From: a virus
Reading direction: 5' to 3' (one strand)
DNA: 34,109 nucleotides
Virus record (IMG/VR): IMGVR_UViG_3300042325_000122
Location: 1-34,109 of that record
The translations under genes were made by a program, and so were the position numbers. This document shows, piece after piece, positions 2,853 to 27,660 of the stretch. The notes below the pieces were generated by a model. It had not been told where the DNA came from and did no database searches. It saw only the letters and a list, made by a program, of their open reading frames with translations. How positions within the stretch are numbered: position 1 is the first letter of the stretch; every line of letters begins with the position of its first letter.

Positions 2853-3283
2853 AAGATCAAATCATCTGTAGTGGTGCGTTAATGTATTCTCGTGCTACAC
2901 ACCGCTTCTTACTGATACAAAAGTCTTCAGGTAAACATCAAGGAACTTGGGGGTTAGTAGGCGGAACTAACCTTGTTAACGAAAATCCGTGGCAAGGTCT
3001 TACAAGAGAAATTGAAGAAGAAATTGGATTTCTTCCAGACATTAAAAAAACACTACCGTTAGAAAAGTTTGTATCTAACGATAGTGTCTTTAATTTTCAT
3101 ACATATTTTTGTTTAGTTGAAAATGAATTTGTACCAACTTTAAGCGATGAACATATTGCTTGGGGTTGGTTTGATATTAACGTTCTTCCTAAACCTATAC
3201 ACCGCGGCTTAAATCTTAGCTTGCGTAACAAAGTCATTCAAACTAAGATTCAAACACTCATCGATATTATCGATAGTATCTAA
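2834..3283 (+). CDS. Nudix hydrolase
   Basis: This 149-aa protein carries a complete Nudix box at residues 44-66: G44, E50, then R58-E59 and E62-E63-x-G65, fitting Gx5Ex7REUxEExGU exactly. The glutamates of the box bind the divalent metal. Upstream, KHQGTWGLVGG (34-44) is the usual lead-in, and WGWFDINVLP near residues 110-120 fits the strand and loop after the catalytic helix. Nudix enzymes hydrolyse nucleoside diphosphates linked to another moiety (dNTP, ADP-ribose, GDP-sugar, NAD, Ap4A); the substrate cannot be told from this sequence. Its start overlaps the end of the gp15-like gene by 19 bases, with AAGGTGGG (2823-2830) as ribosome binding site. Its stop overlaps the stop of the convergent 1881-aa gene by 4 bases. 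Substrate sugars or nucleotides linked to the 12-16 kb island would be pure guesswork. Confidence 0.9.
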   Translation: MAIGTVKDQIICSGALMYSRATHRFLLIQKSSGKHQGTWGLVGGTNLVNENPWQGLTREIEEEIGFLPDIKKTLPLEKFVSNDSVFNFHTYFCLVENEFVPTLSDEHIAWGWFDINVLPKPIHRGLNLSLRNKVIQTKIQTLIDIIDSI

Positions 3284-9566: not shown

Positions 9567-10373
9567 TTATAAATTACCAGTATTAGTTGAAGGGAATGAT
9601 CTGTTTGGTCCCCAAATTATTCTAACTGCGCCGCTTGCGCCTGGTCCGCCGCTGTATCCAGAACCGCCGCCTCCACCAAACAAGCCGCCTGCTTGATACG
9701 ATCCGCCTCCGCTTCCGTCGACTGTAGAACCGCCGCCTGACCCTCCGCCGCCTGTAACTGACCCCGACGGGCCTTCGCCGTAAATTCCAACCCCACCCCC
9801 ACCTGGGCCACCGCTCCCGTTTCGACCACCTGCGCCGCCTCCTCCCGGAGGGGCAACCGAGCCACCGGCACCGCCGTTACCGGAATAACCGCCTGCCCCT
9901 CCACCACCGCCGTCAACAGTTACAAGTCCATTACCGCCATTACCGCCGAATCCAACGTTACCGGAAGATGTTGAAACACCGGCTACTGCTCCACCACCGC
10001 CACCGCCAGTTGCTATTACAGATGATACGTTGAATGAACTAGTACCACCAGCTCCTCCGTTTGGGTTACCAGTAGTTAAGTAGTTAGTTCCGCCTGCGCC
10101 GACTACAACAGTATACGCATTACCTGGAACTACTGGTATATTGTTAGCATATCTTAAATTGCCGCCTGCAGACCCATTCCAATTAGCAGAATTACCGTAC
10201 CCTCCACCGCCACCGCCCCCGACACACACAACACATACAGATGTAACGCCAATTGGCGCTGTCCAAAAATACGTGCCGGCAGATGCATATGCCTGTTGGC
10301 CAACAGCAGACGGTAACGAACCAGTAGTAGAAACCCAAAACGTAGTTGATTTTAATGAACACAATAATGTCAT
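9567..10373 (-). CDS. Glycine-rich adhesin-like protein (268 aa)
   Basis: The start is non-repetitive, with SAGTYFWTAPIGVTSVCVVC at about 31-50, the 'W-T-x-P-x-G-V-T' lead-in of phage glycine-rich adhesins. Next come some 190 residues of glycine-rich sequence with many GGGGG and GxGGxG runs. The end is GASGAVRIIWGPNRSFPST. The plan matches glycine-rich phage proteins of the gp38/'polyglycine' type, in which glycine runs form packed polyglycine-II helices that carry host-binding loops. It stands directly after the 535-aa fibre gene (3-base gap) and before the 204-aa fibre gene, so it may be the tip of that fibre. The coding DNA is locally GC-rich because of GGN codons. The start has only a weak GGAT upstream, consistent with coupling to the gene before it. 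The receptor role is inferred. Confidence 0.7.
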   Translation of the reverse strand: MTLLCSLKSTTFWVSTTGSLPSAVGQQAYASAGTYFWTAPIGVTSVCVVCVGGGGGGGYGNSANWNGSAGGNLRYANNIPVVPGNAYTVVVGAGGTNYLTTGNPNGGAGGTSSFNVSSVIATGGGGGGAVAGVSTSSGNVGFGGNGGNGLVTVDGGGGGAGGYSGNGGAGGSVAPPGGGGAGGRNGSGGPGGGGVGIYGEGPSGSVTGGGGSGGGSTVDGSGGGSYQAGGLFGGGGGSGYSGGPGASGAVRIIWGPNRSFPSTNTGNL

Positions 10374-14011: not shown

Positions 14012-15814
14012 ATGAATTTAATAAACAAAGATATTTGGATTGCAGGCATCGCTAGAGGACATAATAGTAGTGTATGCTTAACTAAAAACGGTGAAATTGT
14101 TTTTAGTATTGAAGAAGAACGAGTTAGTCGTAATAAGTATGACGGCGGGCCGTTTGCTGCATTTTTAAAAATTTTAGATTATACCGATAGATTAGATTTT
14201 ATTGTAATTGCACATACTCAAAAATTATCAGATACTGCTGGAAGAGTTGATTTTACTGGTGAAGATATTTATACTGGTCTTGCAAGAAAGTTAGGATTAA
14301 TTAGTCGTACTGAGAATATGTATCAACACCCTCAAGTGATTGATCTAAGTCATTATCATCATAAATTGCATGCTGCATGTGCATTTTATAGATCTGGATT
14401 TAGAGAAGCAACTGCAGTAATTGTAGACGGTGCAGGTACGTTTATTACATTAACTTCAAACAATGGTGAACAAATGACTGGTTGGGAAACTGAATCAGTT
14501 TTTGACTGTGCATATCCTACATGGTTTAAAACTGTGTATAAACATATTGGTGTTAGAGGTCCGTTACCAGGTGCATTAGTTACAGAGTTTGATAGCGGAA
14601 TGTATGAAGAACCGGAATCTACCCATGAAGCATTAATTACTGATCGAGCAGGCATTACAAAAGTTTATGAAGCAGTAACACAATATTGCGGATGGTCATC
14701 TATTGAAGCTGGTAAAACTATGGGATTAGCTCCGTATGGTAAAGCAACTGATAAAATTCCTAAATTATTTGATGATACTTCTATTGCAGCATTAGCAAAT
14801 AGAAATATTATTGTTCCAACATATCCAAATGGCGCATCTGTAAACTATATGTTGTACGATTATCTTAATGATTTGCCAGAAACTGATGTTACATTAAATG
14901 ATAATAGAAGAGATTTAGCATGGGCATGCCAGTCTGAAACACAACAGCAAGTATTAGATTTAATTCGATCAGCTGTTAAGAAAACTGGTCAAAAGCAAGT
15001 AGTGTTAAGTGGGGGTTATGGATTAAATTGCGTAGCAAATTATTCATACTTAGACCAATTAGCAGAAGAAGGTATTAAATTATATGTTGAACCAATTAGT
15101 AATGATGCAGGAACTGCAATAGGTGCAGCATTATTAGTGTTTAACAGAAAATATCCTCACATGCATGTTGATCATACTAAAAACAGATTATATCTTGGAT
15201 TTGAATACAATTATACAGATGACGATTTGCAAAAATATGTTAACTGGTATGGAGCTGAAATATTAGATGCCGATAATAGTACAGTAGTTGATTTGCTTTT
15301 AAATAAAAATATCGTTGCAATGTTCCAAGGAAGATCTGAAAATGGACCTCGTGCATTAGGTAACAGATCATTAATGTTTAATCCAACATATGAAGATGGA
15401 AAAGACTTTGTTAATCAAATTAAAAACAGAGAATACTTTAGACCGTTTGCCGGTTCAATCTTACAAGAGCATGTTCATGAATGGTTTGATTTAAAAGGAA
15501 TGGAAGACAGTCCTTATATGATGTATGCTGTAAATTGCCAACCGGGTGTTAAAGAAAAAATTCCAAGTATTATTCATGTTGATGATACTTGCAGAATTCA
15601 AACAGTAACTTCTGAACAAAATTATCATTATTACAATTTAATTAATGACTTTTATGAAAAGACAGGAGTTCCAATATTATTTAACACTAGTTTTAATCTA
15701 GGTGGAGATCCCTTAGTAGAAACTTTAGACGATGCAGTGCATACGTTATACCATAGTAAAATTGAATATGTTTATCTTCCAGAATTACAAAAAATAATCA
15801 AAGTTGCTAACTAA
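14012..15814 (+). CDS. Carbamoyltransferase, NodU/CmcH/TobZ family
   Basis: The 600-aa protein is full length for the family. Residues 5-40 give IWIAGIARGHNSSVCL and FSIEEERVSR, the usual N-terminal start. H116-H117-K-L-H120-A-A matches the HHxxHAA metal-binding motif of the Kae1-like domain, followed by VDGAGTF (138-144). KTMGLAPYGK (235-244), VVLSGGYGLNCVAN (330-343), SNDAGTAIGAAL (363-374) and GRSENGPRALGNRS (440-453) are further family signatures. The C-terminal domain has KNREYFRPFAGSI (471-483) and PILFNTSFNLGGDPLVET (554-571). Family members move a carbamoyl group from carbamoyl phosphate, through carbamoyl-AMP, to a hydroxyl on a sugar or antibiotic. AAGGAT (13998-14003), overlapping the end of the SGNH gene, is the ribosome binding site. 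With its two neighbours it suggests decoration of a glycan. Confidence 0.93.
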   Translation: MNLINKDIWIAGIARGHNSSVCLTKNGEIVFSIEEERVSRNKYDGGPFAAFLKILDYTDRLDFIVIAHTQKLSDTAGRVDFTGEDIYTGLARKLGLISRTENMYQHPQVIDLSHYHHKLHAACAFYRSGFREATAVIVDGAGTFITLTSNNGEQMTGWETESVFDCAYPTWFKTVYKHIGVRGPLPGALVTEFDSGMYEEPESTHEALITDRAGITKVYEAVTQYCGWSSIEAGKTMGLAPYGKATDKIPKLFDDTSIAALANRNIIVPTYPNGASVNYMLYDYLNDLPETDVTLNDNRRDLAWACQSETQQQVLDLIRSAVKKTGQKQVVLSGGYGLNCVANYSYLDQLAEEGIKLYVEPISNDAGTAIGAALLVFNRKYPHMHVDHTKNRLYLGFEYNYTDDDLQKYVNWYGAEILDADNSTVVDLLLNKNIVAMFQGRSENGPRALGNRSLMFNPTYEDGKDFVNQIKNREYFRPFAGSILQEHVHEWFDLKGMEDSPYMMYAVNCQPGVKEKIPSIIHVDDTCRIQTVTSEQNYHYYNLINDFYEKTGVPILFNTSFNLGGDPLVETLDDAVHTLYHSKIEYVYLPELQKIIKVAN

Positions 15815-15850: not shown

Positions 15851-16498
15851 TTAATTTGGTGGATTAATTGGTTGGATTTTCCACGGATCAACCGGTGGAA
15901 TAGTTGAACCACTTGACGCACCGTATGTTTGCGGTAAATCACGCAATCCTTGTCGATACGCTACCCAGTTAGATAACACCGCAGCTGGCATATCTGGCAA
16001 TTCATTATAATCAGAACCATCTAATAAATGATTCCGCCATTGTCTAATACCATCCCATGTTATATGTGGTTGTTTCCACGGAAGTGGAGTTACAAACGTA
16101 GAATTTTCAACATCGTACGTAATGTCTAATAATTCATATGTATGGTCAGGTGGTGGACATAATGGACGAGTATACGTATTACCACACGGCAATTCTTCGG
16201 TATATTGTTCTAAAGTTGCATAATCGGGCAGTTCATCTGCACCAACTAATGTTGCTATAATTGGATCAACTGTAGGATCAATTTCTATTCGATATTGATC
16301 TAATGGAACTGGTATTTCTCCGCCTTTATCATCTTCAGTTAAAAAATTTCCAACAATTTTATTAGTTTCTTTGTCTAAAAAAATCCAAATTTTATCTGGA
16401 CCATTATATGTCCAAGTTGCAACTTTACCGAGTATATTAGTTTGTGCTAAGTAATCATCCGGTAAGTCGTATGTAAATGTATGTGTAATTTTATTCAT
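15851..16498 (-). CDS. Phage tail assembly chaperone-like protein (215 aa)
   Basis: The C-terminal third has the pattern I-R-x-x-R-N-x-L-L-x-x-S-D-Y (151-164), then W178-VAYRQGLRDLP (to 189). I associate this 'W..YRQxLRDLP' ending with the Phage_tail_APC type of tail-fibre assembly chaperone (as in Tfa-like proteins). The N-terminal part (KITHTFTYDLPDDYLAQTN, TWTYNGPDKIWIFLD) is shared with the 224-aa gene at 18005-18679, as are TEELP, PPDHTYEL and PWKQPH. The two are clear paralogs. It follows the 243-aa cysteine-rich gene, whose stop is four bases before this ATG, so it may fold or attach that product. The end PPVDPWKIQPINPPN is proline-rich. The start has only a weak GGAT site, which fits coupling. 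It is the last gene of the long minus-strand block, ended by the hairpin at 15816-15842. Confidence 0.7.
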   Translation of the reverse strand: MNKITHTFTYDLPDDYLAQTNILGKVATWTYNGPDKIWIFLDKETNKIVGNFLTEDDKGGEIPVPLDQYRIEIDPTVDPIIATLVGADELPDYATLEQYTEELPCGNTYTRPLCPPPDHTYELLDITYDVENSTFVTPLPWKQPHITWDGIRQWRNHLLDGSDYNELPDMPAAVLSNWVAYRQGLRDLPQTYGASSGSTIPPVDPWKIQPINPPN

Positions 16499-16502
16499 AT
16501 TA

Positions 16503-17234
16503 TTATCCGTAAGTAATTGATACTAGCCCGCCTGCGCCCCATCCGCCGTAACAGCAAACGTTTCCAGAAACATTTGCGTTCCATCCGCCGCCGCCTGGAA
16601 AATACGGAGTCCATGTGCCACCACCCCCCATTGGTCCGCAACCTCCCGGTCCTGCCCACGCACCGGATCCGGTTGATGCCGCAAGAGCAGAAAATTGCTG
16701 TGATTTGAAATAACAAAATGTATTTTGTATTGCCGAACCAGTATAACCAGCAGCACACACATCTCCACCAGTTGCTATTGCACAACATCCGGATACATTA
16801 CAAATATAACAACTTCCAAATGCAAAACATTGTGTACATCCGCCGCTACCCCCTGCACCGCAGAAATTTGATAAGCCGTATCCTGTCACATACGAAGTTG
16901 ATCCAGTACAACCTGTTAGTGATTGAGAACATCCGGTACTGCTAGCAGCGCATATAGTATATTGGCAACCGGCTAACTTACCAGAAATTGTTTTTTTCGC
17001 ATACCCACCGGCGCCACCGCCTGGTCCGTATTGACAACAACATGCCATACCGCCACCGCCTCCTCCACCCCATAATTCAAATATTATATTAGTAGTACCA
17101 GCTGGTGCTGTCCATAAACAGCAGCATCCGCCATTTGCCCCTGACATTGATGTATTATACACTAATAGTTCAATTGGGTAATTTGGTACAAGGGTAGTTG
17201 TTGCAGTATATGCTAGTGATCTTAAATTTGACAT
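16503..17234 (-). CDS. Cysteine/glycine-rich adhesin-like protein A (243 aa)
   Basis: The protein has 22 cysteines in 243 residues (9%). CCC at 37-39 leads into WTAPAGTTNIIFELWGGGGG (41-60). This is the same lead-in as glycine-rich phage adhesins (compare FWTAPIGVTSV in the 9567-10373 gene), with a second CCC at 65-67. A long Gly/Cys/Ser stretch follows (CQYTIC, GCSQSLTGC, CTQC, CYIC, SGCC), then PGGGG runs. The end VCCYGGWGAGGLVSITYG is shared with its two neighbours. There is no signal peptide or membrane segment. AAGGAA precedes the ATG by a few bases. It is followed after four bases by a chaperone-like gene. A tip adhesin of a tail fibre is my inference; metal binding or disulphide stapling is possible but not shown by a known motif. 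Confidence 0.65.
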   Translation of the reverse strand: MSNLRSLAYTATTTLVPNYPIELLVYNTSMSGANGGCCCLWTAPAGTTNIIFELWGGGGGGGMACCCQYGPGGGAGGYAKKTISGKLAGCQYTICAASSTGCSQSLTGCTGSTSYVTGYGLSNFCGAGGSGGCTQCFAFGSCYICNVSGCCAIATGGDVCAAGYTGSAIQNTFCYFKSQQFSALAASTGSGAWAGPGGCGPMGGGGTWTPYFPGGGGWNANVSGNVCCYGGWGAGGLVSITYG

Positions 17235-17243
17235 ATTATTCCT

Positions 17244-18005
17244 TTATCTGTATGTTATTTTTATCATGCCACCGGCTCCCCATTGTCCCCAACAACAGGC
17301 GCCACCATGTACTGATGAAGTTGCTCCAGCGCCGGCTGGAAATAATGGAGGAGTGTCTCCCATCATCTGACATCCACTAAGCAGACCGCAGCTGTCACGT
17401 GACACTCGAACACCGCTTGATTTATAAGGAGCACCTGGAACATAATGCCAGTGCTCAAATGCACATGAACCTCCGCCGTGGTCGCTTGCAAAATGTCCAC
17501 ACATACTTAATGAGCCGCCGCACGTTGTACCAGTTACACAACTTAATGATGGATAGCATCCTCCATTAGCTATAAAGCACTGAGACTGACCACCACATCC
17601 GCCGCTTGCACACAAACATACTGGATACGTTGCAGATGCATTACATACGTACGACGGATACCCACATACGCCACAACACGTTGTTGAACAACATCCAGAT
17701 CCGGCTGCACAGATTGTATAAACCTCACCAGGATTTACTCGAGTATATTTTCTTGTATATGATCCCGATGCTCCTGCTTGAAAAGGCTGTTGACAACAAC
17801 ATGCCCCGGCGCCGCTGCCGCCGCCTCCCCATACGTCAAACAGTGCCCACGTAGCGCCTGTGGGCACTGTCCATCCGCAACAAATGCCACCGTTTGTAAC
17901 AGATGTTGTATTAGTATTGTACACATACAATACAGATAACTGTGTTACACCACCAATTGAAATAGAATACCTACTATCGGGAAATAATGTAGTTAAACTT
18001 GCCAT
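17244..18005 (-). CDS. Cysteine/glycine-rich adhesin-like protein B (253 aa)
   Basis: The protein has 25 cysteines in 253 residues. The plan matches protein A: CC at 42-43 then GWTVPTGATWALFDVWGGGG, CCC at 69-71, a Gly/Cys middle (YTICAAGSGCCSTTCCGVCG), and the end GGACCWGQWGAGGMIKITYR. The middle also shares a CCGVCGYPSYV segment with CCGTCGFPSYV of protein C, showing close descent. Its ATG overlaps the stop of the upstream chaperone-like gene by one base (TAATG on the minus strand), a sign of translational coupling. Protein A follows after nine bases. Unlike A and C, no chaperone-like gene directly follows it. The function is unknown; a host-binding virion protein is inferred from the family plan. 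Confidence 0.65.
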   Translation of the reverse strand: MASLTTLFPDSRYSISIGGVTQLSVLYVYNTNTTSVTNGGICCGWTVPTGATWALFDVWGGGGSGAGACCCQQPFQAGASGSYTRKYTRVNPGEVYTICAAGSGCCSTTCCGVCGYPSYVCNASATYPVCLCASGGCGGQSQCFIANGGCYPSLSCVTGTTCGGSLSMCGHFASDHGGGSCAFEHWHYVPGAPYKSSGVRVSRDSCGLLSGCQMMGDTPPLFPAGAGATSSVHGGACCWGQWGAGGMIKITYR

Positions 18006-18679
18006 TATGTACTCCCAGTAGTTGGTTCTCCAACTCTAAAAACAGGAGGCTCTGATCCCGGATGATGTGGAAATGGAACTTTCCATGGATCAATATCTTT
18101 AAACACTGTTGGCAAGTCTCTTAACGTTTGACGAAATTCTTCCCATTCAATTTTTTTATTTTCAGGTGCTTGTACATATTGAAGATCTGACCATGATAAG
18201 CAATTATTACGTTGATCACTAATGTCATCCCACGATACATGTGGTTGTTTCCATGGATACGGTTTAACAAATTTACTTTTTTTAGTATCATACGTAATTT
18301 CAGTTAACTCGTATGTATGATCAGGCGGAATCGGATCCGGATGACCATACACTGCACCGTTAGGTAATTCTTCGGTAGTATGCGGCAATGATCCGTAATC
18401 CCATTCGTTATGAATTAAACTTGCAATATCTGGATTTACTGTTGCATCTACTAACACTTTAATTTGTCCGTCTGGGGTAGGTACATCTGCACCCTCATCT
18501 CGTTCAGTATAATGAAATCTACTACTAATTTTATTAGTAGAACTGTCAATAAAAATCCAAAGCTTGTCAGGACCTTTATACGTCCATTCTGCTTTTCTTT
18601 TTAATTTATTTGTTTGGTATAAATATTGGTCGGCAATATCATATGTAAACGTTTTTTCTATATTTGTATTTTCTGCCAT
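18005..18679 (-). CDS. Phage tail assembly chaperone-like protein, paralog (224 aa)
   Basis: This is a paralog of the 215-aa protein at 15851-16498. Shared blocks are FTYDIADQYLYQTNKL (11-26), EWTYKGPDKLWIFIDSSTNK (31-50), TTEELPNG, IPPDHTYEL (117-125) and PYPWKQPHVSWDDI (140-153). The C-terminal chaperone pattern is R157-N-N then W179-EEFRQTLRDLP (to 190), followed by DIDPWKVPFP. Both end in a proline-rich tail, but the tails differ. It lies between cysteine-rich genes C (12 bases upstream) and B (1-base overlap downstream). AGAGGA is its ribosome binding site. Its likely role is helping the cysteine-rich fibre tips to fold or trimerise; whether it serves C, B or both cannot be told. Confidence 0.7.
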   Translation of the reverse strand: MAENTNIEKTFTYDIADQYLYQTNKLKRKAEWTYKGPDKLWIFIDSSTNKISSRFHYTERDEGADVPTPDGQIKVLVDATVNPDIASLIHNEWDYGSLPHTTEELPNGAVYGHPDPIPPDHTYELTEITYDTKKSKFVKPYPWKQPHVSWDDISDQRNNCLSWSDLQYVQAPENKKIEWEEFRQTLRDLPTVFKDIDPWKVPFPHHPGSEPPVFRVGEPTTGST

Positions 18680-18691
18680 ACTATATCCTCT

Positions 18692-19468
18692 TTATCCGTA
18701 TGTAATTAAAACCATTCCAGGTGTACCCCAACTTCCCCAACAACAAGCGCCACCACATCCGAGACCGTTTGCACCGCCGCCGCCGGGCCATGATGTTGCA
18801 TTAGACGGTGATGCACACCATTTCATACAACCTGATCCTGCATACCCAACCGAACAGTCATCTTGCCCGTGTCTAGTATTTGGTGCATATTGATAAGTAC
18901 CCGACAAAAATGGAAAATTATGGTTTGCACAATAGCTACTATGTTTGGATCCTTGAGTCATACTTGGATATTGCATATCTCCAAGACCACAACACCCGCA
19001 AACTCTACCACCACAGTTAATTCCTTGATAGCTTGCTTGTGACATCATCCAACAACCGGTAGTACCGCCTACTCCTCCACTAGCACACGCAACCATAGAA
19101 CCTGCAGTGTTTGTAACATAACTAGGAAACCCACATGTGCCGCAACAGTTTGGTGAACAACAACCTGACATACCAACACAAATATTATAAAATGCGCAGC
19201 CGCATGTTTGAATAGTTTTTACTACGTACATACCATTGCCGGATGCCATGCATGATCCCATACAACAACACCCACCAGCGCCGTCTCCGCCGGACCCGTA
19301 TACTTCAAATGTAGCCCAAGTTGTACCTGACGGCACTATCCAGCAACAGCAAGTGTTTCCGGTTGTAACACCAACCCCTTCTCTGCCGTTCATAATCATT
19401 AATTGTTTAGGCGCATACGATGCAAAAACTGGTGGAACAATTAACGATAAATCTCGTAAATTTGCCAT
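18692..19468 (-). CDS. Cysteine/glycine-rich adhesin-like protein C (258 aa)
   Basis: The protein has 28 cysteines in 258 residues (11%), the highest of the three. CCC at 40-42 runs into WIVPSGTTWATFEVYGSGG, and CCC recurs at 67-69. The middle has MSGCCSPNCCGTCGFPSYV and INCGGRVCGCCGLGD; the end is GGACCWGSWGTPGMVLITYG. It starts MANLRDLSL, like MSNLRSLAY of protein A. The central 160-210 region (SKHSSYCANHNFPFLSGTYQ) is less repetitive and differs most between the paralogs, so it could hold the binding specificity (inference). A strong AAGGAG site precedes the ATG. A small virion protein gene lies ten bases upstream and a chaperone-like gene twelve bases downstream. Confidence 0.65.
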   Translation of the reverse strand: MANLRDLSLIVPPVFASYAPKQLMIMNGREGVGVTTGNTCCCWIVPSGTTWATFEVYGSGGDGAGGCCCMGSCMASGNGMYVVKTIQTCGCAFYNICVGMSGCCSPNCCGTCGFPSYVTNTAGSMVACASGGVGGTTGCWMMSQASYQGINCGGRVCGCCGLGDMQYPSMTQGSKHSSYCANHNFPFLSGTYQYAPNTRHGQDDCSVGYAGSGCMKWCASPSNATSWPGGGGANGLGCGGACCWGSWGTPGMVLITYG

Positions 19469-19478
19469 TCACTGCTCC

Positions 19479-19805
19479 TTACTTGCCAGCAATAATCCAA
19501 CCATTTGATACTGTATAAAGTAGTGTAATGGATGCATTATTAATGTTTAATATTAAATTTTCTGCTAAATTTTGTATATTTGCAGCACCGCTTCGTGCTA
19601 CAGTAACGTTACTTGATCCAAATACTCCAGTAACATCGAGTATTTGAATTGTATCACCATCAATGCAAGTTGCACTATTTGGTAATGTAATTGTAAAACC
19701 GCCGGCTGTACAGATAATTCTATCATTTACCTGTGCAGTGTATGTAGTACTTACTGATCTATTTACTGCACCTGCGGTCCCTGTTGTTGTTATATATCTT
19801 CCCAT
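19479..19805 (-). CDS. Small virion/fibre-associated protein (108 aa)
   Basis: This is a beta-rich protein with NDRIICTAGGFTITLPNSAT, then GDTIQILDVTGVFGSSNVTV, RSGAANIQNLAENLILNINN and a final LLYTVSNGWII. The pattern F-x-I-T-L-P ... G-D-x-I-x-I-x-D ... N-V-T-V-x-R-x-G ... G-W occurs widely as a small domain at the ends of phage fibres and as a stand-alone gene in marine T4-like phages; I know no tested role. GAGGAC precedes the ATG and a late-promoter-like octamer lies at 19825-19832. It precedes the cysteine-rich cassette and may be its anchor or shaft (inference). Confidence 0.6.
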   Translation of the reverse strand: MGRYITTTGTAGAVNRSVSTTYTAQVNDRIICTAGGFTITLPNSATCIDGDTIQILDVTGVFGSSNVTVARSGAANIQNLAENLILNINNASITLLYTVSNGWIIAGK

Positions 19806-19824: not shown

Positions 19825-19832
19825 TATTTATG
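19825..19832 (-). promoter_or_regulatory. T4-late-promoter-like octamer before the cysteine-rich cassette
   Basis: On the minus strand it reads CATAAATA, one base from TATAAATA, with its 3' end 20 bases before the ATG at 19805. It overlaps the last codons of the gene upstream. If real, it would give the 108-aa gene and the cysteine-rich cassette their own late transcript. Confidence 0.3.
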
Positions 19833-20151
19833 ACGTTGGGGTCTCAATTCCGTATGCAACTGCATTTACGTTTGCTGTACTTGATCTAACTAAAATAGTT
19901 TTAGTTGCATCAAGTACTAACCCTGTTCGTTCAAGTACACCCTTTGGTAGCAATTCAGTGTCATACTCAATAAATTCAGAAGCACCGATTGTTGTTGTTG
20001 ATGTAGATAAACCAATTCTCACAGTAACCGAAACGTTACTTCTATTTACTATCGATACTGTTGCTACTGTGAAAGTCCCAGCAGGAACAGTATACAATAA
20101 CGTATCTGTTCCTGCTACAAGATTCACTGCGCCTAATCTTCCTGTTGCCAT
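19828..20151 (-). CDS. Small virion protein (107 aa)
   Basis: The protein runs TLLYTVPAGTFTVATVSIVN (18-37), RSNVSVTVRIGLS, EFIEYDTELLPKGVLERTGL and ends LVRSSTANVNAVAYGIETP. The order 'Y-T-V-P-A-G ... V-x-I-V-N-R ... E-x-x-x-L-x-x-G-x-x-L-x-x-x-x-I-x-V-x-S ... V-x-A-x-x-Y-G-x-E' marks a small beta-sandwich type virion protein common in phages. The protein cut off at the right edge of the window has a comparable C-terminal half. Its function has not been shown as far as I know; decoration or fibre attachment is possible. AAGGAA is the ribosome binding site, and the gene lies 15 bases after the 2497-aa gene in the same minus-strand block. Confidence 0.55.
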   Translation of the reverse strand: MATGRLGAVNLVAGTDTLLYTVPAGTFTVATVSIVNRSNVSVTVRIGLSTSTTTIGASEFIEYDTELLPKGVLERTGLVLDATKTILVRSSTANVNAVAYGIETPTS

Positions 20152-20166: not shown

Positions 20167-23100
20167 TTAAGATAATAAGAAGTTCATTGCTAGCGGTGAT
20201 CCAGATACACCGCCTATGAAATTCATAGTGTTTGCTACATTGATCTGTACACCCGTTGTTGTTGAAATAGTGTTGCCTGCAATATACACAACACCTGCGG
20301 TTATTGTATTTACGTTCAGAGAACTACCACCTCCACCGATTTGGCTACTAATATATGATTTAATAGCTTTTTGTGTTGGTATTACATTATCGCTATTTGC
20401 TGTAAAATACGGATCAGTTGAAAATGAAGTAATAGTAGCACTTGTGCCGCCTAATGTTACTGAACCTAATGTTAACTGATTTAACCCTGCGATGTTAAAT
20501 GCATCTGCATTCAATGTTGCAACACCAGTTGATTGTTGTACTGAGAACAAATTACCTACCGTAAAGTTACCATCTTGGTCAGTGCTTGTATAGAATACCC
20601 GTCCGCCGCCAAATGCCACAGTTTGTTTTTCTGAATCAACTGCTAATGCAGGTGCACCAGGGAAGTTAGTGCTTGGAAAATTACCAGTTCCAATATTTAA
20701 AAAGTCGTGTCCTGTTAATCGAACTTGACTATATTGAATTCGCATAGTTACAATAACTCCGTGTGCTGGCGCATTTGCAATTGGTACTGCAGGACTTAGC
20801 TGTAGTGTGGCGTTATATGGGGATTGCCCTCCGCCAGTCCCCATATAATTCAATACTGCAACCAATTTATAATAAGTTGGATCCCCAGTAAATACAACAT
20901 TTGAACCTGGAATCGGAGCTGATGCTAAACCTGAAATATTAACATAATTTCCTGGTTGGAACATATCAGCATATCCGTTACCAATTACGCTTGCAGATGC
21001 AACTGAATACTGGGTTCCTCTATTATTAAATGTCGGGTTTGCTAATACACCTACCCCTGTTCTTACTTGCCATGTAAATGGAGAGGTTACGTTTGAGTCA
21101 GTTACAGTTACAATTGGTATTGCATTGTAACCGCTTCCAGGTTCAACAATTCTAAATTCTGATATAGAACCTGACGATACTTTAACACGACCTTGAGCCG
21201 TTGCACCAGTAACAATATTGTTAGCAGTCGTAGTTGCACTTGATAACGCTGCCCAAATTGGAGTACTATTTGGATTACCAAATGATACAGTAGGCCAAGA
21301 TGTTGATGTTAATAACGTTCTGCTAATCCATGCAATTCCATCTTCTGACGATGCAGCAATAGTTGTAGTACCGGTTGCTACTGCAAAGAATACACCTTGT
21401 CCGTATTTTACTTGTGTCCATGCTTGCGATGCTGGCAACGGCTGACTTGAGTACCATGTGATACCATTTAACGAATATGCAGCAATAGTACTTCCACTTG
21501 CAATTGCTACAAATTTACCATTACCATACGTAACACTTTTCCACGTTGCAGCAACTGGTAATGCTGCAGGTGTCCATGAAGTTCCGTCATTAATTGAATA
21601 TGCAGCAGATGTGCCACCACTTGCAATTGCTACCCATGTACCTGCTCCATATGCAACACTAGTCCACGTAGTAGGCGTAGGTAATGCACCAGTTGATGTC
21701 CATACAGTAGCATTTGATGTAATATTAGCAGTAGCTGATCCGGATAACACTGCAATGTATCTATTATTGCCGTATGCAACATCTGACCAATTACCTGTTG
21801 TTGATAACGATCCTGCACTTGACCATGTTGCGCCGCCATCTACACTTTTTGCAGTATTTAATGATCCGTTTTGTACTGCAACCCATGTACCTACTCCGCT
21901 TAATGTACCATAAGTTACTGCAGTCCATGACGAACTAACTGGAAGAGCTCCTCCTGTGACCCAATTAGTACCATCAACACTATATTGAGTTAATGTACCT
22001 GAACCTGCGATTGCAACATAATTACCGCCAGCTCCTAAACCGTTATATGTAAAGTTACTAATAACACCGTTTACAACGTTATTTACAGTAATCGTTAAGT
22101 TGTTTAATGGAGCAGCTCCGCCTAAACTCGTACCTAATATAGTTAATACATTGTCTTTAACATAATTAATACCGCCTGCATTTAAAGTAACTGCATATGA
22201 TACACCAGTTTTAACTATATTAAATGTTGCACTTGTACCAGCACCCCCAGTCGGTGATACTGCTGTATACGTAGTATTAATATCCCCGTAAATTGAATCA
22301 ATCCATGCAGCATTTTGTTGTGTTACTGACGTTGCAGAATAACCAGGACTTGCAAATTGTACTCTTGGTTCAATTATATACGATGAGGTAGTATCTAACG
22401 CTGCTAGAATTGGAGTACCTGATACCACATGATCCCATCCTGCAGCATTTAAAGTCATTGTACTTGCAGTTATTGTCGATAAAGTAACTGCTGATCCTCC
22501 AACGCTTGTGCTAACTGAAAATTGAGTTGATGTAAATCCTGTAGAAATTACATAGTACACTGTTCCAACTGCTAATCCACCAATTGCAGTTCCGGTAAAT
22601 ATAACCGGCATGTTAACATATAATGTAGCAGTACTCGGAACTGTGATTAGATTTGAAGTAACAGTCGTTCCGGTTGCAACTATTGCACTGAAACTTTCTT
22701 TTGCAACCATTGCTACTTTAGATCCTGAATTATATCTTACAATATAGCCGTATTGTCCTGTTCCTAAACCACTAGTTATTTGAATGCTCATTCCAATATA
22801 TGTTGAATTAATTGCCAAATCAACTGCAGCAATGGTTATTGATGTAGTATTGCCTGACTGTCCAGTGTTAGCAGATGTTACATAATTTTCACCATTTGAT
22901 AACAATTTTGTTTCAAACACTGCGTTATCTCTAAATTCGTTAGCAACTGATACTGCACCGTAACCTGTTCCACTAAATGAAAATGTAGCAGTATTGTACT
23001 TTGTACCAGCATTTAAGAATTCAACTCTGTAAATTCTATCAACTGCGTTAGTTATTACATTAGTAATAAGTGCTTGGTTAGCATAATTGTTAACCGTTGC

Positions 23101-26100
23101 AATCAATGGAGTTTCATAAATATCAACACCTTCAGCAACTGTGCCATACGTACCATACGAGCTGTTACCATTAGTAGCACGAATTTTACCGCCGTTCTCA
23201 GCTAAGTATCCCATATATCCGTAGTACGAAAACACAGATACTAATTCAGTTAATGATTGTGAACCAGTACACCAAACACCAATACCGTCACTTAAAATTT
23301 GAGTAAAGTCGTTTGCTACAACAGAACGGTTTCCGCCACTGTGTATAGTTCCATCAATCTTTAACCCAATACACCCTGTACCAAATGTTGTAACATTTTG
23401 AATATACGGTGACCGTGATGTAATCCAGGTACGTCTATCATTTGGTCCCCAACCTGGGTCTAAACTAACATATGCGCCAGCAGTTGGACGTTTTGTACCA
23501 TAGCTATTTACAGGTCCTAAAGTGCCAGTTAATCCCTGTACTGTTAAATTCCTAATACCTGTTGAATTTCTAACATAGAACATATCAGATAACAGAGAAC
23601 CAGATACTGCAGTTGAATAACACGCTGCACTCCATTGAGATGAATAATTTCCAATATTAATAATGTCATTAGCAACTGAAGTTACTAAAATTTTCATATC
23701 TCTTGCACACGAAATTGGATCATAAACATAAGAAACAATCATAGATCCAGTACCAGTAGTTAAGGTTTCTGCAGATCCACCTACTGTAGATGAAATTTTA
23801 AACGAAACTCCGTTAACTACTGTATGAATATAATAGTTAACACTTAAATTAATTCCACCAAATATTGATCCAGTAAATGTAATTTTGTCTCCGGCTACCA
23901 TCCAACTGGTGCTTGTACATGTGAATGTAGTAGTTGAACTTGCAGTAACAGTAGTATTAAATGTATTAATATACGCAACTGATTCAGCTGCAAGAAAATC
24001 AGCATTTGCAAGCAACTGATATGCGCCATTAATTGCGTCATTACTTGCATTTGTAAAGTTGCTGCCTGCATTTGGAACACTTGTTCCGCTCATATTTGCA
24101 ATAACATCTGTCCACAATGCATTAGCAAGTGCTGCTGATCCCGATGCTGCAATATATTTTGCAGTATATTTTAAGAACGTTATCATTCCTAAAGTTGCAG
24201 ATTTTTGTCCTGATAATACAATTTGTGCCGACGCTACTGCTCTGTAATACGACATGCCAGTTTGACATGATAAGAAATTACTTCCAAACATCATATCATA
24301 CCCAATTGCGTCAATCATATATCCAACATCTCGCGAACACGTAGTTTGATTAAACAATAATGTTGCATTATGCGCTTTAACATACGCTAGACAATCAAGT
24401 TGTATTTGTGATTTTGCTGCTTGTAATGCAGTATTTGCTGCAACTAGACCGCTAGCAACCCAACTTGTTGTTGGTGCAAGTAATGTTGGTGTAATTCCGG
24501 TGTTTATAGTATTATAAATTTCTTGAATACGATCTTGTGCAAATGTACCAGCATTCGTCGAACCTCCCGAACCACTAACATCTTGCGTAGTAGTGTTTCC
24601 GGTAGTTCTAGTAATCGCAGTGCCTTGTGCAATGCTTGCGATAATTGTTTTAATTCTATCTTGAACAGCCAATGCTGCAGGTTTTTCAGTAATTAATTCA
24701 ACAAAATTATTATTGCTATAATATGATCTTGCAACAATTGTTGTAGCTAAATTACAAGGAATAAGAGTAGTCCCGTATGTTAAATCGTAGTATACTGCAT
24801 CAACAATATAGCCAATATCACGCGTACATGATGCTTGACCTGCTGGACCTAACATAGTCCATATTGAACTGTAATTAAGTACCATAAATGCAGTAACTTC
24901 ATCTTTTAAAAATTGTTTGTTAGCATTAATTAATCGTCTAGCATTTAAAAATCCAGTATTATAACTTGTTGGGTCGGTGTATGTATAAGGAGGTGCTGAC
25001 ACTGTACCGCCATTGAGAATTGTGTACATTACATCGGCATTTTCCGATACTGCAGTTACTGCAGACGTACTACCGACAGATCCTGCTGGCAAATGCACAT
25101 CTTGAGAAACTGTAACCTGATACGGCGATGCAACTGTAGTGTTTGATATAATATCTGACGTAATTGATTGAATATATGTAACTGCTGAAATTGATTTTGC
25201 AATATCGTTACTTGCAATTAACGACGGGGACGGTCTAATATTTGTTGATCGTAATTCGTCTCCAATAATTGACGTATTATCTGGAACAATAATTGGAAGT
25301 GTTTCATAGTAAATCCCTGTTTTAACAAAAATAGAATAAGTTGTACTAACAACCGCCGGAATATTTGTACTTACACCGGCAGTAATTGCTGCTGTGATAA
25401 CACCTACTAAATTTGATAACAATGTAACTACGCCAGGTTCAACAGGTTTAAGATTATTTGAAACTCTTGTTACTGTTGCTTGATATGAAGTATTTGGTGA
25501 AGTACTTGCAATTACTGAATTAATAACAGACAACATATAGTTATATCCAGCAACATCTTGGCTTGATTGGGTACCTAATACAGTGTAACTTCCGGATACA
25601 TACGATTGAGCAACTTCTACAACTTTAGCATTGCCACCATGCGATAAGTCATAAGCTAACGCATCAACTACATAGCCAATATCACGCTCACATTTACTTT
25701 CATTATAAGTAAATGCTGATGTAAATGGTAGTGTATTATTAGTTATTTGTGAATTAATCCATCCAATAACTTCTTTTTGAATATATGCCCGGTTATTTGT
25801 TAAGAAATATTTTGCATTTGGATTTAATGGTCCGTTTGTAACTTGTTCAGCTGCATATCTAACAGTTAACCACGGACGATCTAAAGTTGCGCCATAACTT
25901 GGTGCTGGATTATTTAAGCCAGTCTGCCCAACATAATAAATTTGATCAATAACACCAAAATATCCCCACGATGGTAGTAACGTTGGTGAAACTTTTAACA
26001 CCTGACCAGGGTCACCGATTGCTAATCGTGTAGGACCACTTTGACTCATGTATGGTATATCACCAGCTGTTGTTAACACCGAGTCTTGCGCACCCGCAGC

Positions 26101-27660
26101 AATCACATTCCAGTACTGTCCTGATACATCAACATCCGGTCTGTTACCACTTGCACTTGTATGTGCTAAAATACAAATATAACTGTTTGGTCCAACACTT
26201 ATAGTATCGCCTAACACATAGTTAACACTAGTATCCCATGTTGCTGCATAGCCAGTTGCTGTAATAGTAGCAATTGCATTACCCGAAACAGTAGCAACAG
26301 TAATTAACACGTCATTAAACGGTGATAACCCGCCAACTTGTGTACCTAATATCTTAATGGTTGTATTTGCAGCATATCCAGTACCACCTGCATTTTTAGT
26401 AACAGTGTAAGAAGTACCAATTGTACTAACATCAAATGTTGCAGAGCTGCCAGCAGCTGTTATGTTTGTACCTGCTAATGCAGTATATGTCTTATTAGTA
26501 TTTGCCCATTTTACCCCTGAGTTTAATCTTGACCAATAAGTAACATTTGGTGGTTGATTGTTAGATGCAGAAGTGTGATCAGCTGTAACTACGTAAGTGT
26601 ACGCACCATTTCGTAAAACATCACCAACTAAATATGATTGCCCAGATGCCCAATCTCCAATAAACGAAAATCCGGTTGTAAATAAAGACCAATCACTTGC
26701 GTTAGCAGTAGGAGTTTTATTTGAATTATTAGTTTTACTAATATATGAATAACCACCGTACCCAACAATATCTCCAGGCTGATAAAGTGTTGCGTTATCC
26801 CATGAATCTTCATAAGTTAACCCTTCAACAAATCTTGCCCAGTTTGATTCTTCAAATAGTGTAGATGATGTATGGTATGTTGTACATATCCAAACATCGG
26901 CACCGTAGTTTACTAAGTCATTAACTGTATAACGAACAGAACTTCCACTCCATTGACCTAAATAATTAACACCTTTATGGAAATAATCCCATTTACCTTG
27001 ATCATTTTCAAGACCTAACGTAGCGGTTGCTGCAGAAGTATGACCAGCATTACACACATATGTCTGTCCTCCATACTTTACAACATCATTTACTTTATAT
27101 CTTGTTGATACTGTCCAATCAGTTAACCATGTAAAACCATCAGTAAATAAATCCCATTTACCTTGATCATTTTCAAGACCCAGCGCAGATGTTGCTGCAG
27201 AAGTATGACCAGCATTACACACATAATTTCTACCACTATATTTTACAACATCATTCTTTTTATATCTTGTTGATACTGTCCAAGTTGATTTCCAATCAAA
27301 GCTAGTTGCATATAATGTCCAATTGCTTTGATTTGCTTCAAGGCCTAATACAAGAGTTGCTGCAGAGTTGTGACTATTATTACAGATATATACAATTCCA
27401 CCATATTTTACTAAATCATTTAAATTGTAATATGTGTTAACTGTCCAGTTTGATCTCCATGTAGTACCGTCAGATACTTGATTCCATTTTGTAGGAATAC
27501 CGGTTAAATCAGTTGTAAACAAAACAGAGCTAGTATGCCCTGCTATACAAACGTATGCTTTACCACCGTTTCTAACAACATCATCTCGTAGATAAGATGT
27601 GGATGGAGTCCACTCATCTTTCCATATGAATCGTATTCTACCTAGTTTAAATTCAGCCAT
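20167..27660 (-). CDS. Giant modular adhesin / tail fibre protein (2497 aa)
   Basis: The N-terminus MAEFKLGRIRFIWKDEW is shared with the 1914-aa paralog. Residues 12-523 hold eight CBM5/12-like repeats (W...T.Y..GD.V.YGG..YVC...HTS ... W), broken between repeats 7 and 8 by an 88-aa ILGTQVGG module. A beta-helix starts near 573 (YYVGQTG, LDRPWLTVRYAAEQV). C-x-R-D helical modules lie near 655, 942, 1105 and 1315. KTGIYYETLPIIVPDNTSII (about 777) and GIRNLTVQGLTGTLGPVNSY with CIGLKIDGTIHSGGNRSVVA and YLAENGGKIRATNGNSSYGT (about 1365-1510) are beta-helix turns. About 1877-2147 are six or seven propeller-like repeats (TWTSVAYGxGTWVAIA, YSLNGITW). The C-terminus from about 2311 has VRLTGHDFLNIGTGN, STDQDGNFTVGNLFSVQQ and VIPTQKAIKSYI. 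It probably binds host polysaccharide. It is one of the longest genes to be expected in such a phage. Confidence 0.8.
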   Translation of the reverse strand: MAEFKLGRIRFIWKDEWTPSTSYLRDDVVRNGGKAYVCIAGHTSSVLFTTDLTGIPTKWNQVSDGTTWRSNWTVNTYYNLNDLVKYGGIVYICNNSHNSAATLVLGLEANQSNWTLYATSFDWKSTWTVSTRYKKNDVVKYSGRNYVCNAGHTSAATSALGLENDQGKWDLFTDGFTWLTDWTVSTRYKVNDVVKYGGQTYVCNAGHTSAATATLGLENDQGKWDYFHKGVNYLGQWSGSSVRYTVNDLVNYGADVWICTTYHTSSTLFEESNWARFVEGLTYEDSWDNATLYQPGDIVGYGGYSYISKTNNSNKTPTANASDWSLFTTGFSFIGDWASGQSYLVGDVLRNGAYTYVVTADHTSASNNQPPNVTYWSRLNSGVKWANTNKTYTALAGTNITAAGSSATFDVSTIGTSYTVTKNAGGTGYAANTTIKILGTQVGGLSPFNDVLITVATVSGNAIATITATGYAATWDTSVNYVLGDTISVGPNSYICILAHTSASGNRPDVDVSGQYWNVIAAGAQDSVLTTAGDIPYMSQSGPTRLAIGDPGQVLKVSPTLLPSWGYFGVIDQIYYVGQTGLNNPAPSYGATLDRPWLTVRYAAEQVTNGPLNPNAKYFLTNNRAYIQKEVIGWINSQITNNTLPFTSAFTYNESKCERDIGYVVDALAYDLSHGGNAKVVEVAQSYVSGSYTVLGTQSSQDVAGYNYMLSVINSVIASTSPNTSYQATVTRVSNNLKPVEPGVVTLLSNLVGVITAAITAGVSTNIPAVVSTTYSIFVKTGIYYETLPIIVPDNTSIIGDELRSTNIRPSPSLIASNDIAKSISAVTYIQSITSDIISNTTVASPYQVTVSQDVHLPAGSVGSTSAVTAVSENADVMYTILNGGTVSAPPYTYTDPTSYNTGFLNARRLINANKQFLKDEVTAFMVLNYSSIWTMLGPAGQASCTRDIGYIVDAVYYDLTYGTTLIPCNLATTIVARSYYSNNNFVELITEKPAALAVQDRIKTIIASIAQGTAITRTTGNTTTQDVSGSGGSTNAGTFAQDRIQEIYNTINTGITPTLLAPTTSWVASGLVAANTALQAAKSQIQLDCLAYVKAHNATLLFNQTTCSRDVGYMIDAIGYDMMFGSNFLSCQTGMSYYRAVASAQIVLSGQKSATLGMITFLKYTAKYIAASGSAALANALWTDVIANMSGTSVPNAGSNFTNASNDAINGAYQLLANADFLAAESVAYINTFNTTVTASSTTTFTCTSTSWMVAGDKITFTGSIFGGINLSVNYYIHTVVNGVSFKISSTVGGSAETLTTGTGSMIVSYVYDPISCARDMKILVTSVANDIINIGNYSSQWSAACYSTAVSGSLLSDMFYVRNSTGIRNLTVQGLTGTLGPVNSYGTKRPTAGAYVSLDPGWGPNDRRTWITSRSPYIQNVTTFGTGCIGLKIDGTIHSGGNRSVVANDFTQILSDGIGVWCTGSQSLTELVSVFSYYGYMGYLAENGGKIRATNGNSSYGTYGTVAEGVDIYETPLIATVNNYANQALITNVITNAVDRIYRVEFLNAGTKYNTATFSFSGTGYGAVSVANEFRDNAVFETKLLSNGENYVTSANTGQSGNTTSITIAAVDLAINSTYIGMSIQITSGLGTGQYGYIVRYNSGSKVAMVAKESFSAIVATGTTVTSNLITVPSTATLYVNMPVIFTGTAIGGLAVGTVYYVISTGFTSTQFSVSTSVGGSAVTLSTITASTMTLNAAGWDHVVSGTPILAALDTTSSYIIEPRVQFASPGYSATSVTQQNAAWIDSIYGDINTTYTAVSPTGGAGTSATFNIVKTGVSYAVTLNAGGINYVKDNVLTILGTSLGGAAPLNNLTITVNNVVNGVISNFTYNGLGAGGNYVAIAGSGTLTQYSVDGTNWVTGGALPVSSSWTAVTYGTLSGVGTWVAVQNGSLNTAKSVDGGATWSSAGSLSTTGNWSDVAYGNNRYIAVLSGSATANITSNATVWTSTGALPTPTTWTSVAYGAGTWVAIASGGTSAAYSINDGTSWTPAALPVAATWKSVTYGNGKFVAIASGSTIAAYSLNGITWYSSQPLPASQAWTQVKYGQGVFFAVATGTTTIAASSEDGIAWISRTLLTSTSWPTVSFGNPNSTPIWAALSSATTTANNIVTGATAQGRVKVSSGSISEFRIVEPGSGYNAIPIVTVTDSNVTSPFTWQVRTGVGVLANPTFNNRGTQYSVASASVIGNGYADMFQPGNYVNISGLASAPIPGSNVVFTGDPTYYKLVAVLNYMGTGGGQSPYNATLQLSPAVPIANAPAHGVIVTMRIQYSQVRLTGHDFLNIGTGNFPSTNFPGAPALAVDSEKQTVAFGGGRVFYTSTDQDGNFTVGNLFSVQQSTGVATLNADAFNIAGLNQLTLGSVTLGGTSATITSFSTDPYFTANSDNVIPTQKAIKSYISSQIGGGGSSLNVNTITAGVVYIAGNTISTTTGVQINVANTMNFIGGVSGSPLAMNFLLS
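23590..25225 (-). repeat. ~540-aa block with three C-x-R-D helical modules, absent from the paralog
   Basis: In the 1914-aa paralog the beta-helix runs from VGDELHSTIVHP straight into DMFRVRNGTGIRN. In the 2497-aa protein the same two segments (IGDELRSTNIRP and DMFYVRNSTGIRN) are separated by about 540 residues. These carry CTRDIGYIVDAVYYDL, CSRDVGYMIDAIGYDM and the degenerate CARDMKILVTSVANDI. The block is read as an in-frame insertion, or a loss in the paralog. Confidence 0.7.
26092..27627 (-). repeat. Eight CBM5/12-like repeats, N-terminus of the 2497-aa protein
   Basis: The repeats are 50-55 aa each. Repeat 3 is typical: W-T-V-S-T-R-Y-K-K-N-D-V-V-K-Y, then YVCNAGHTSAAT, then GLENDQGKWDLF. 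The aromatic residues W, Y and the final W fit the sugar-binding face of CBM5/12 modules. Repeats 5-7 are more diverged. Confidence 0.75.
26986..27225 (-). repeat. Recent DNA-level duplication: two 75-base near-identical units 165 bases apart
   Basis: 26986-27060 and 27151-27225 begin with the same 29 or so bases and share the run GTTGCTGCAGAAGTATGACC in the same position. The offset is 165 bases, exactly one 55-aa repeat. They encode the ends of CBM-like repeats 4 and 3, which differ at few residues, showing a recent repeat gain by unequal recombination. Confidence 0.85.

Follow-up and report, generated by a model that had tools for sequence, protein, structure and literature searches.

The window analyzed here, a stretch of 34,109 nucleotides from a virus (IMG/VR record IMGVR_UViG_3300042325_000122, positions 1 to 34,109), carries at positions 15851 to 19468 a cassette that encodes three paralogous cysteine- and glycine-rich proteins, which we refer to as adhesins A, B and C. 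These proteins constitute a real, conserved and frequent cysteine-rich variant of a known adhesin fold, which is undescribed as far as our searches reach. On the basis of sequence comparison and a structural model, A, B and C are assigned as putative receptor-binding proteins of a fiber tip that combine a tumor necrosis factor (TNF)-like and a glycine-rich domain, with strong fold evidence for C and homology for A and B. The receptor-binding function is proposed because of this fold, the chaperone-like neighbors and the place of the genes downstream of a giant fiber. The best overall explanation, which we consider moderately probable, is that A, B and C are chaperone-assembled tip adhesins whose loops are braced by disulfide bonds. 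A preliminary description, made from the sequence, had presented the stretch as a cassette of three genes. The three adhesins were indeed found; however, the cassette consists of five tightly packed genes in the order A, chaperone-like open reading frame (ORF) 1, B, C and chaperone-like ORF 2, and the two chaperone-like ORFs had gone unmentioned.

Cysteine makes up 9.1 to 10.9% of A, B and C compared to 0.60% in a set of 13 further window ORFs, and to 0.4 to 0.9% in the two chaperone-like ORFs. At a cysteine rate of 1%, the binomial probabilities of the observed numbers are 2.6e-20 for A, 2.5e-17 for B and 1.2e-14 for C. Exact counts in the ORFs agree with the 22, 25 and 28 cysteines in about 250 residues given by the preliminary description, and the motifs that it had listed were likewise located. 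The first cysteine run, expected as C-C(-C) at about residue 40, lies at 40-42 in A (CCC), 42-43 in B (CC) and 37-39 in C (CCC), and the second (CCC), expected at about 65 to 70, lies at 67-69, 69-71 and 65-67, respectively. The lead-in W-T/I-x-P-x-G-T/A-T reads WIVPSGTT in A, WTVPTGAT in B and WTAPAGTT in C, and all three proteins end in the common motif CC[WY]GxWGxxGxxxITY. Their cysteines span the chains from residues 37-42 to residues 228-243. The glycine share is 18 to 23%, compared to 34% in an ordinary, cysteine-poor relative from a separate locus of the window (9567-10373), which served as an internal control.

High cysteine content is a trait of the whole family, and this family is large, with at least 468 relatives confirmed by profile scans, many of the records being near-copies. 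A family profile run on the 930 ORFs of the first loci gave 220 matches (147 unique), none of which contained less than 6% cysteine, although this says little about intermediates, since only proteins having 15 or more cysteines went into the profile and most loci were fetched with cysteine-rich queries. After further loci had been included, the 280 unique members with a length of 200 residues or more all contained 6.1 to 12.6% (minimum, 6.07%). Four of 145 sequences, which lacked the C-terminal end motif, were left out of the counts; later tallies omit members shorter than 200 residues, and the alignments and the tree omit rows above about 72 to 80% identity. Ordinary relatives of the fold are poor in cysteine, as the preliminary description had stated: 61 stretches (near-copies included) that matched the control protein of the window contain 0 to 2.2%, and the 5 stretches of this set that were matched by the family profile itself contain 0 to 1.05%. 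The interval from 2.2 to 6.1% thus separates two sets that were sampled with different queries, so that intermediates may exist.

The cysteines are also the best-kept residues of the family. Mean column identity in 94 sequences was 0.65 for cysteine, 0.56 for glycine and 0.38 for tryptophan, the ranking being among residue types that occupy two or more positions of the reference, and C125, C136 and C199 of protein C are cysteines in 0.97, 0.98 and 0.99 of the sequences. Within the tip region, which we delimited from the secondary structure of the C model, identity in 38 sister pairs was 0.87 for cysteine, 0.81 for glycine, 0.56 for tryptophan, proline and tyrosine, and 0.42 for the other residues. 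This pattern corresponds to a fixed framework beneath a surface that changes rapidly. The preliminary description had named cysteines that are not conserved in homologs as evidence against its proposal; when tested, the homologs were found to conserve them. Runs of CCC occurred 197 times versus about 25 expected from shuffles (141 proteins, near-copies included). In 147 proteins, adjacent cysteines were 2.18 times and CxC 1.28 times as frequent as in block-shuffled sequences, while CxxC showed no enrichment (ratio of 0.99).

The structure prediction proposed in the preliminary description was carried out for C. An AlphaFold2 model built with an alignment of 41 sequences reached a pLDDT of 78.8 and a pTM of 0.79, with confidence below 50 at residues 1-3, 139-143 and 196-202. 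Its best match in the Protein Data Bank (PDB) was the fiber adhesin gp24 of cyanophage Pam3 (7YPX; Foldseek E value of 2.2e-6), with a Z score of 19.5 and an rmsd of 4.2 over 204 aligned residues (model residues 6-243 on chain residues 45-275). Therefore, the reading of these proteins as kin of the polyglycine adhesins holds. The tail tip of Bxb1 followed with a Z of 14.3, and then the TNF-like/glycine-rich domains of ALK and LTK (Z of 8.5 to 10.2), which share the fold class of C but are animal receptors with Foldseek E values from 0.011 upward and without a functional link. Matches of the C model in BFVD included a protein of S-CAM3, Q58M49 of P-SSM2 and "Gp38" of Syn9. All three proteins matched phrog_4205 (E values of 9.5e-24 for A, 3.8e-25 for B and 6.5e-42 for C, covering positions 42-284, 35-284 and 41-284 of 287), a PHROGs cluster annotated as of unknown function, for the label of which no paper was found in the accessible portion of the openly licensed literature. 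With Gly_rich_2 (PF21722) they share a WTxPxGxT lead-in and a glycine-rich body; however, C scored 21.2 bits, below the cutoff of 24.3, and A and B gave no match to this profile. A, B and C are thus related in fold to Gly_rich_2 without being filed as members, and the relatives in that group are the cysteine-poor ones. Two other routes to kin were discarded: a PDB sequence search with C gave a chance-level match only, and the match of the family profile to RemZ (E value of 4.2e-4) proved to be to a glycine-rich stretch without the cysteines.

Pam3 gp24 forms a trimeric fiber, the glycine-rich loops of which terminate in a hypervariable tip with a proposed role in receptor binding, and it is assembled by the chaperone gp25 in a 3:3 complex (7YPX, 7YFW), according to the accessible passages of PMC9608196. 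The C model resembles it in having a TNF-like β-sandwich and a glycine-rich tip domain, and the cassette resembles the gp24/gp25 pair in a phage-encoded chaperone (putative here) and a conserved glycine stem with a hypervariable distal tip. In contrast, the Pam3 fiber protein is a homotrimer of one protein with a long N-terminal helical docking domain, whereas the cassette encodes three paralogs with 9 to 11% cysteine, almost no N-terminal helix in the C model (residues 5-8 only, in a low-confidence stretch) and a chaperone-like protein the fold of which was not matched to gp25. The word "cysteine" does not appear in PMC9608196. The claim made here is hence one of shared tip domains and a similar way of working, and not that these proteins are gp24s. 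The S16-type gp38 (6F45) also carries glycine-rich motifs layered at the fiber tip. It differs by a β-helix middle domain, according to the Pam3 paper, and 6F45 was absent among the matches listed for the C model.

The neighboring ORFs may encode assembly factors. Chaperone-like ORF 2 scored 44.6 bits with PF16778, over the cutoff, while ORF 1 remained under it (21.7 versus 26.6 bits) and matched phrog_9740 and phrog_4912, both "tail fiber assembly." The AlphaFold2 model of ORF 1 (pLDDT of 94.6) has strands in its N-terminal and a helix pair in its C-terminal part; it found no whole-length match in the PDB. The counterparts in S-SSM7 and Sf-FS3 score over the PF16778 cutoff, whereas those in S-CAM1, S-CAM3 and P-SSM2 gave no PF16778 match, yet were detected by an iterated profile made here. 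A tblastn search of the phage collection with ORF 1 returned 7 records, all of them S-CAM1, which carries the cysteine-rich genes.

Named phages with the family are almost all cyanophages. A tblastn search of 50,697 named phage records (union of four queries) found it in 21, of which 19 were Synechococcus or Prochlorococcus phages (S-SSM7, S-SSM6a, S-CAM1, S-CAM3, Sf-FS3, P-SSM2 and P-SSM5) and 2 were marine single-cell virus contigs. A as the query gave no match in the named phages at 1e-5; C and three other members did. The cassette is present in the isolates P-SSM2, S-SSM7, S-CAM1, S-CAM3 and Sf-FS3, where its genes are annotated as hypothetical proteins, and in all five a long fiber-like ORF, variously named, is followed by the cysteine-rich genes and a carbamoyltransferase gene; the record of AG-345-F15 carries no annotation. 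The giant fiber of the window is homologous to the S-SSM7 fiber that precedes the cysteine-rich genes, in its N-terminal part and in a segment close to the C terminus. A, C and the cysteine-poor protein recur in identical form (L004, L051, L092) on a 175,916-base contig from IMG/VR. Because this contig has a T4 gp23-type capsid protein, we assign the window to a T4-related tailed phage. The contig's major capsid protein is nearest (70.5%) to that of Sinorhizobium phage Phosso and not to that of a cyanophage; since the carbamoyltransferase and the fiber are S-SSM7-like and the capsid is Phosso-like, the tip module has probably moved between T4-like lineages. No match to the psbA family was found in 6 records, which are possibly fragments. 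A first chromosome scan with one protein query gave nothing, but a second one with the family alignment detected the same cassette on four contigs from marine metagenome-assembled genomes (MAGs; L163-L166), probably phage contigs that were binned into MAGs. Plasmids searched with C gave no match.

The following course of events would account for these features. In the infected cell, the chaperone-like proteins probably fold and trimerize the three adhesins, in the manner of gp25 acting on gp24 in Pam3. The cysteines of A, B and C form a framework that is dense and conserved, and a large part of it lies in glycine-rich loops in which most other residues vary fast. Lysis would release the virions into oxygenated water, where the cysteines may oxidize to disulfides within and between chains, and these bonds would brace the loops so that the hypervariable receptor-binding surface stays rigid and protease resistant. 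The three paralogs travel as a set and, with less certainty, might form one mixed trimer per fiber. If the cysteines are oxidized in virions, this would show how a dense disulfide framework can arise after lysis in a phage whose proteins are made under the reducing conditions of the cytoplasm, and such a framework would be a rigid scaffold of natural origin that holds hypervariable loops. Little is understood of how cyanophages bind their receptors, and the cassette offers a concrete candidate in culturable phages; a 2010 review, in the part available, mentions "missing" tail fiber proteins in cyanomyoviruses (PMC2984593).

The rule of three is one of the two new aspects of this family. Members were counted with the family profile on 48 whole records of 73 distinct ones, shorter contigs and second records being left out. 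Exactly three members occurred in 42 of the 48, three with one broken in 2 (G012 and G022) and two in 4 (G023, G042, the 19-kb fragment W05 and P-SSM2, the third listed match of which is weak and lies elsewhere). In both records with a broken member the third gene is split (G012, 34728-35565; G022, 9678-10311) and is intact in relatives, which may reflect a sequencing error or a loss. Among the 25 remaining records, counted at the locus, 18 had three members, 3 had two and 4 had one (one of them at a contig end). The gene order in 92 further loci, which include some contigs already counted, was A-chaperone-B-C-chaperone in 87, A-chaperone-B-C in 2, A-B-C-chaperone in 2 and A-chaperone-B-chaperone-C-chaperone in 1; the order A-chaperone-B also recurs among the loci.

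The other new aspect is that the triplications appear to be separate. In a quick tree of 97 rows with many open forks, the genes mostly cluster by position within a lineage, and 18 S-SSM7-type rows from six phages form one supported clade. A single clade of all first-position genes was rejected with a p-AU of 2.9e-53, in a test that was made after the tree had been seen and gave a result for the first-position genes only. One common triplication does not fit this tree; gene conversion within a lineage could mimic separate triplications. The distances of A, B and C correlate with each other (Mantel r of 0.89 to 0.94 in 17 loci).

Because the Pam3 fold is trimeric and three paralogs are inherited together, these results hint at, and by analogy suggest, a mixed trimer of A, B and C, which would be a natural asymmetric adhesin. 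Several observations count against it. Only two members are present in P-SSM2, AG-345-F15, L024, L036/L037 and L088, and a single one in L033, L071 and L080, several of all these being fragments; from the lone and paired members it follows that a mixed trimer is not universal. In addition, distance correlations of similar size were obtained with the chaperone-like genes (0.78 to 0.90, without an unrelated-gene control). The following facts favor three separate homotrimers with different receptor specificities that are kept together to widen the host range: phages differ in carrying one, two or three copies, locus L034 has a chaperone-like ORF behind each adhesin gene, and the correlations among A, B and C do not exceed those with the chaperone-like genes. 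Yet independent host-range modules should be swapped one by one, whereas most records keep exactly three members, mostly grouped by position within a lineage, with distances that correlate as given above (the unrelated-gene control being absent here, too), and in several lineages the three adhesins are accompanied by just one chaperone-like ORF. We regard the three homotrimers as a serious contender that nevertheless falls somewhat short of being probable. The full version of the mixed trimer, namely an obligate heterotrimeric tip with one copy each of three disulfide-stapled paralogs, chaperone assembled, cross-linked after lysis, displaying three hypervariable faces, triplicated separately in several T4-like lineages and perhaps opened by reduction at the host surface, appears rather unlikely. 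Both the stapling and the heterotrimer claims are directly testable on existing isolates.

The preliminary description had proposed a stapled or metal-binding variant of the polyglycine sandwich. The adhesin type is borne out, but neither chemistry of the cysteines gained backing from covariation, parity or CxxC spacing. We favor disulfides because many of the cysteines are located in rapidly evolving loops that should face the outside of the cell, because a core set is strongly conserved and because phage Milano provides a precedent; in our judgment, disulfides are well ahead of metal. Several results stand against the overall explanation given above. In a parsimony analysis of cysteine gain and loss, 335 same-direction versus 305 opposite co-changes were counted over 1357 column pairs, the best p value being 0.0023 compared to a Bonferroni limit of 3.7e-5. 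Among 141 proteins, 75 had an odd number of cysteines and 66 an even one, and the A+B+C total was odd in 23 of 44 triplets, so that in these not every cysteine can be paired within a 1:1:1 trimer. Both the missing covariation and the missing parity speak against simple pairing inside one chain. Of the long N-terminal helical docking domain of gp24 the C model shows a 4-residue helix only, gp25 was absent among the matches listed for the ORF 1 model, and only the C-terminal part of that model matched a relative (2KZ6; Z of 5.6). Lastly, no virion proteomics data for proteins of this type were found. Interchain bonds or some free thiols are, as we judge it, a likely reason for the missing parity.

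Efforts to identify intrachain disulfide pairs were unsuccessful: sister-pair counts and parsimony co-changes gave nothing significant, and an independent-pairs test was tried on one column pair and had too few pairs on supported branches. A phage-encoded route of thiol oxidation did not emerge either. No Erv/ALR match was obtained in 10 records in a search without a positive control, and thioredoxin (2 of the 10 records) and glutaredoxin (5 of the 10, namely the five named isolates) gave no clear link.

Binding of zinc, copper, iron or an iron-sulfur cluster, by which the tip would be organized in the way known from metallothionein-like or cluster proteins, would suit the dense CC and CCC runs, the gain and loss of single cysteines one at a time, which a thiolate cluster may tolerate, and the lack of a parity preference. 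CxxC, the usual ligand spacing of zinc-ribbon and Fe-S sites, is not enriched, however; the cysteines of A, B and C are spread along the chains rather than gathered in one compact stretch, and histidine and aspartate are scarce in the tip regions (2.9 and 2.5%). We therefore consider metal-thiolate adhesins improbable.

The closest disulfide-rich virion precedent found is Agrobacterium phage Milano, for which the available passages of PMC10811340 report 2.1% cysteine in structural proteins and disulfides between tail components, including receptor-binding protein attachment. Its enrichment is modest, unlike the 6 to 12.6% in the putative receptor-binding tip described here, and the bonds described link the sheath, the baseplate and the attachment ends of the receptor-binding proteins. 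Some Milano disulfides must be reduced for contraction (PMC10811340, same passages), and one could picture a redox-gated tip in which the adhesin is kept locked by disulfides as long as the water is oxic, until their reduction on contact with the host surface frees the loops or triggers the next step; the hosts named in the records of family-bearing phages are photosynthetic picocyanobacteria. Such a switch would rest on analogy, however, and the garland proteins of Milano are without cysteine, while its disulfides join components instead of bracing a tip (PMC10811340, same passages). This gate has a slim chance of being correct. That the cysteines are incidental (drift, composition or misread frames) is highly improbable: variable positions often gain or lose cysteine, but the reading is contradicted by conservation (C125, C136 and C199 in the 94 sequences), by the ordinary cysteine content of the neighboring chaperone-like ORFs (0.93% over 123 matches) and by the use of both cysteine codons in the family.

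Concerning earlier reports, no paper on cysteine-rich cyanophage adhesins was found among the titles and abstract openings of the openly licensed literature, in line with the statement of the preliminary description that no system of this kind was known. "Cysteine" has no occurrence in the abstract and passages seen of PMC3037559 (Sullivan 2010). The virion proteomics treated in those passages covers S-SM1 and includes the data of other groups on S-PM2 and Syn9. Not one of these three phages was matched in tblastn searches with family members, though the Syn9 "Gp38" was a fold match.

Table 1. Features of the window in and around the adhesin cassette
Feature	Coordinates	Strand	Remarks
Adhesin A, putative Cys/Gly-rich fiber-tip protein	18692-19468	minus	258 aa, 28 Cys (10.9%); assigned by homology to C
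Adhesin B	17244-18005	minus	253 aa, 25 Cys (9.9%)
Adhesin C	16503-17234	minus	243 aa, 22 Cys (9.1%); AlphaFold2 model
Fiber-assembly-chaperone-like ORF 1	18005-18679	minus	224 aa, 1 Cys; PF16778 and phrog matches
Fiber-assembly-chaperone-like ORF 2	15851-16498	minus	215 aa, 2 Cys; PF16778, phrog_9740 (E 5.2e-29)
Small ORF between giant fiber and adhesin A	19479-19805	minus	108 aa; phage tail/fiber profile matches
Small ORF	19828-20151	minus	107 aa; matches tail-fiber profile phrog_11338
Giant tail-fiber-like protein	20167-27660	minus	2497 aa; homologous to S-SSM7 fiber
Second giant fiber-like ORF	27719-33463	minus	upstream of the cassette
Carbamoyltransferase-like gene	14012-15814	plus	63% identical to S-SSM7 carbamoyltransferase
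Cys-poor Gly-rich relative, separate locus, internal control	9567-10373	minus	268 aa, 3 Cys; PF21722, 47.4 bits

The cassette lies downstream of two giant fiber-like ORFs and two small ORFs on the minus strand (Table 1), and the giant protein next to the small ORFs (20167-27660) is the likely carrier of the tip. The carbamoyltransferase, a gene listed for 5 of 16 cyanophages including P-SSM2 and S-SSM7 in the passages seen of PMC3037559 (Sullivan 2010), is part of the common neighborhood and not of the adhesin. The start of adhesin B coincides with the end of chaperone-like ORF 1 at base 18005, which suggests translational coupling. Another giant fiber-like ORF (3280-8925) lies near the cysteine-poor glycine-rich protein, which also matches phrog_4474, so that this phage apparently has a second adhesin system, with a fold of the same class. 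Before this fiber block, the ORF at 2834-3283 (plus strand) contains, by eye, what we presume to be a Nudix-like motif. The four MAG contigs with the cassette are labeled Neomarinimicrobiota (two, from one MAG), Actinomycetota and Rhodobacteraceae. In S-SSM7 (L038, 8448-9107) and Sf-FS3 (L040, 9345-9977), the cysteine-rich genes and a chaperone-like ORF are followed by an ORF that scores over the cutoff for DUF6445 and matches 2OG-Fe(II)-oxygenase below the cutoff; its product might hydroxylate a fiber component or act on glycans.

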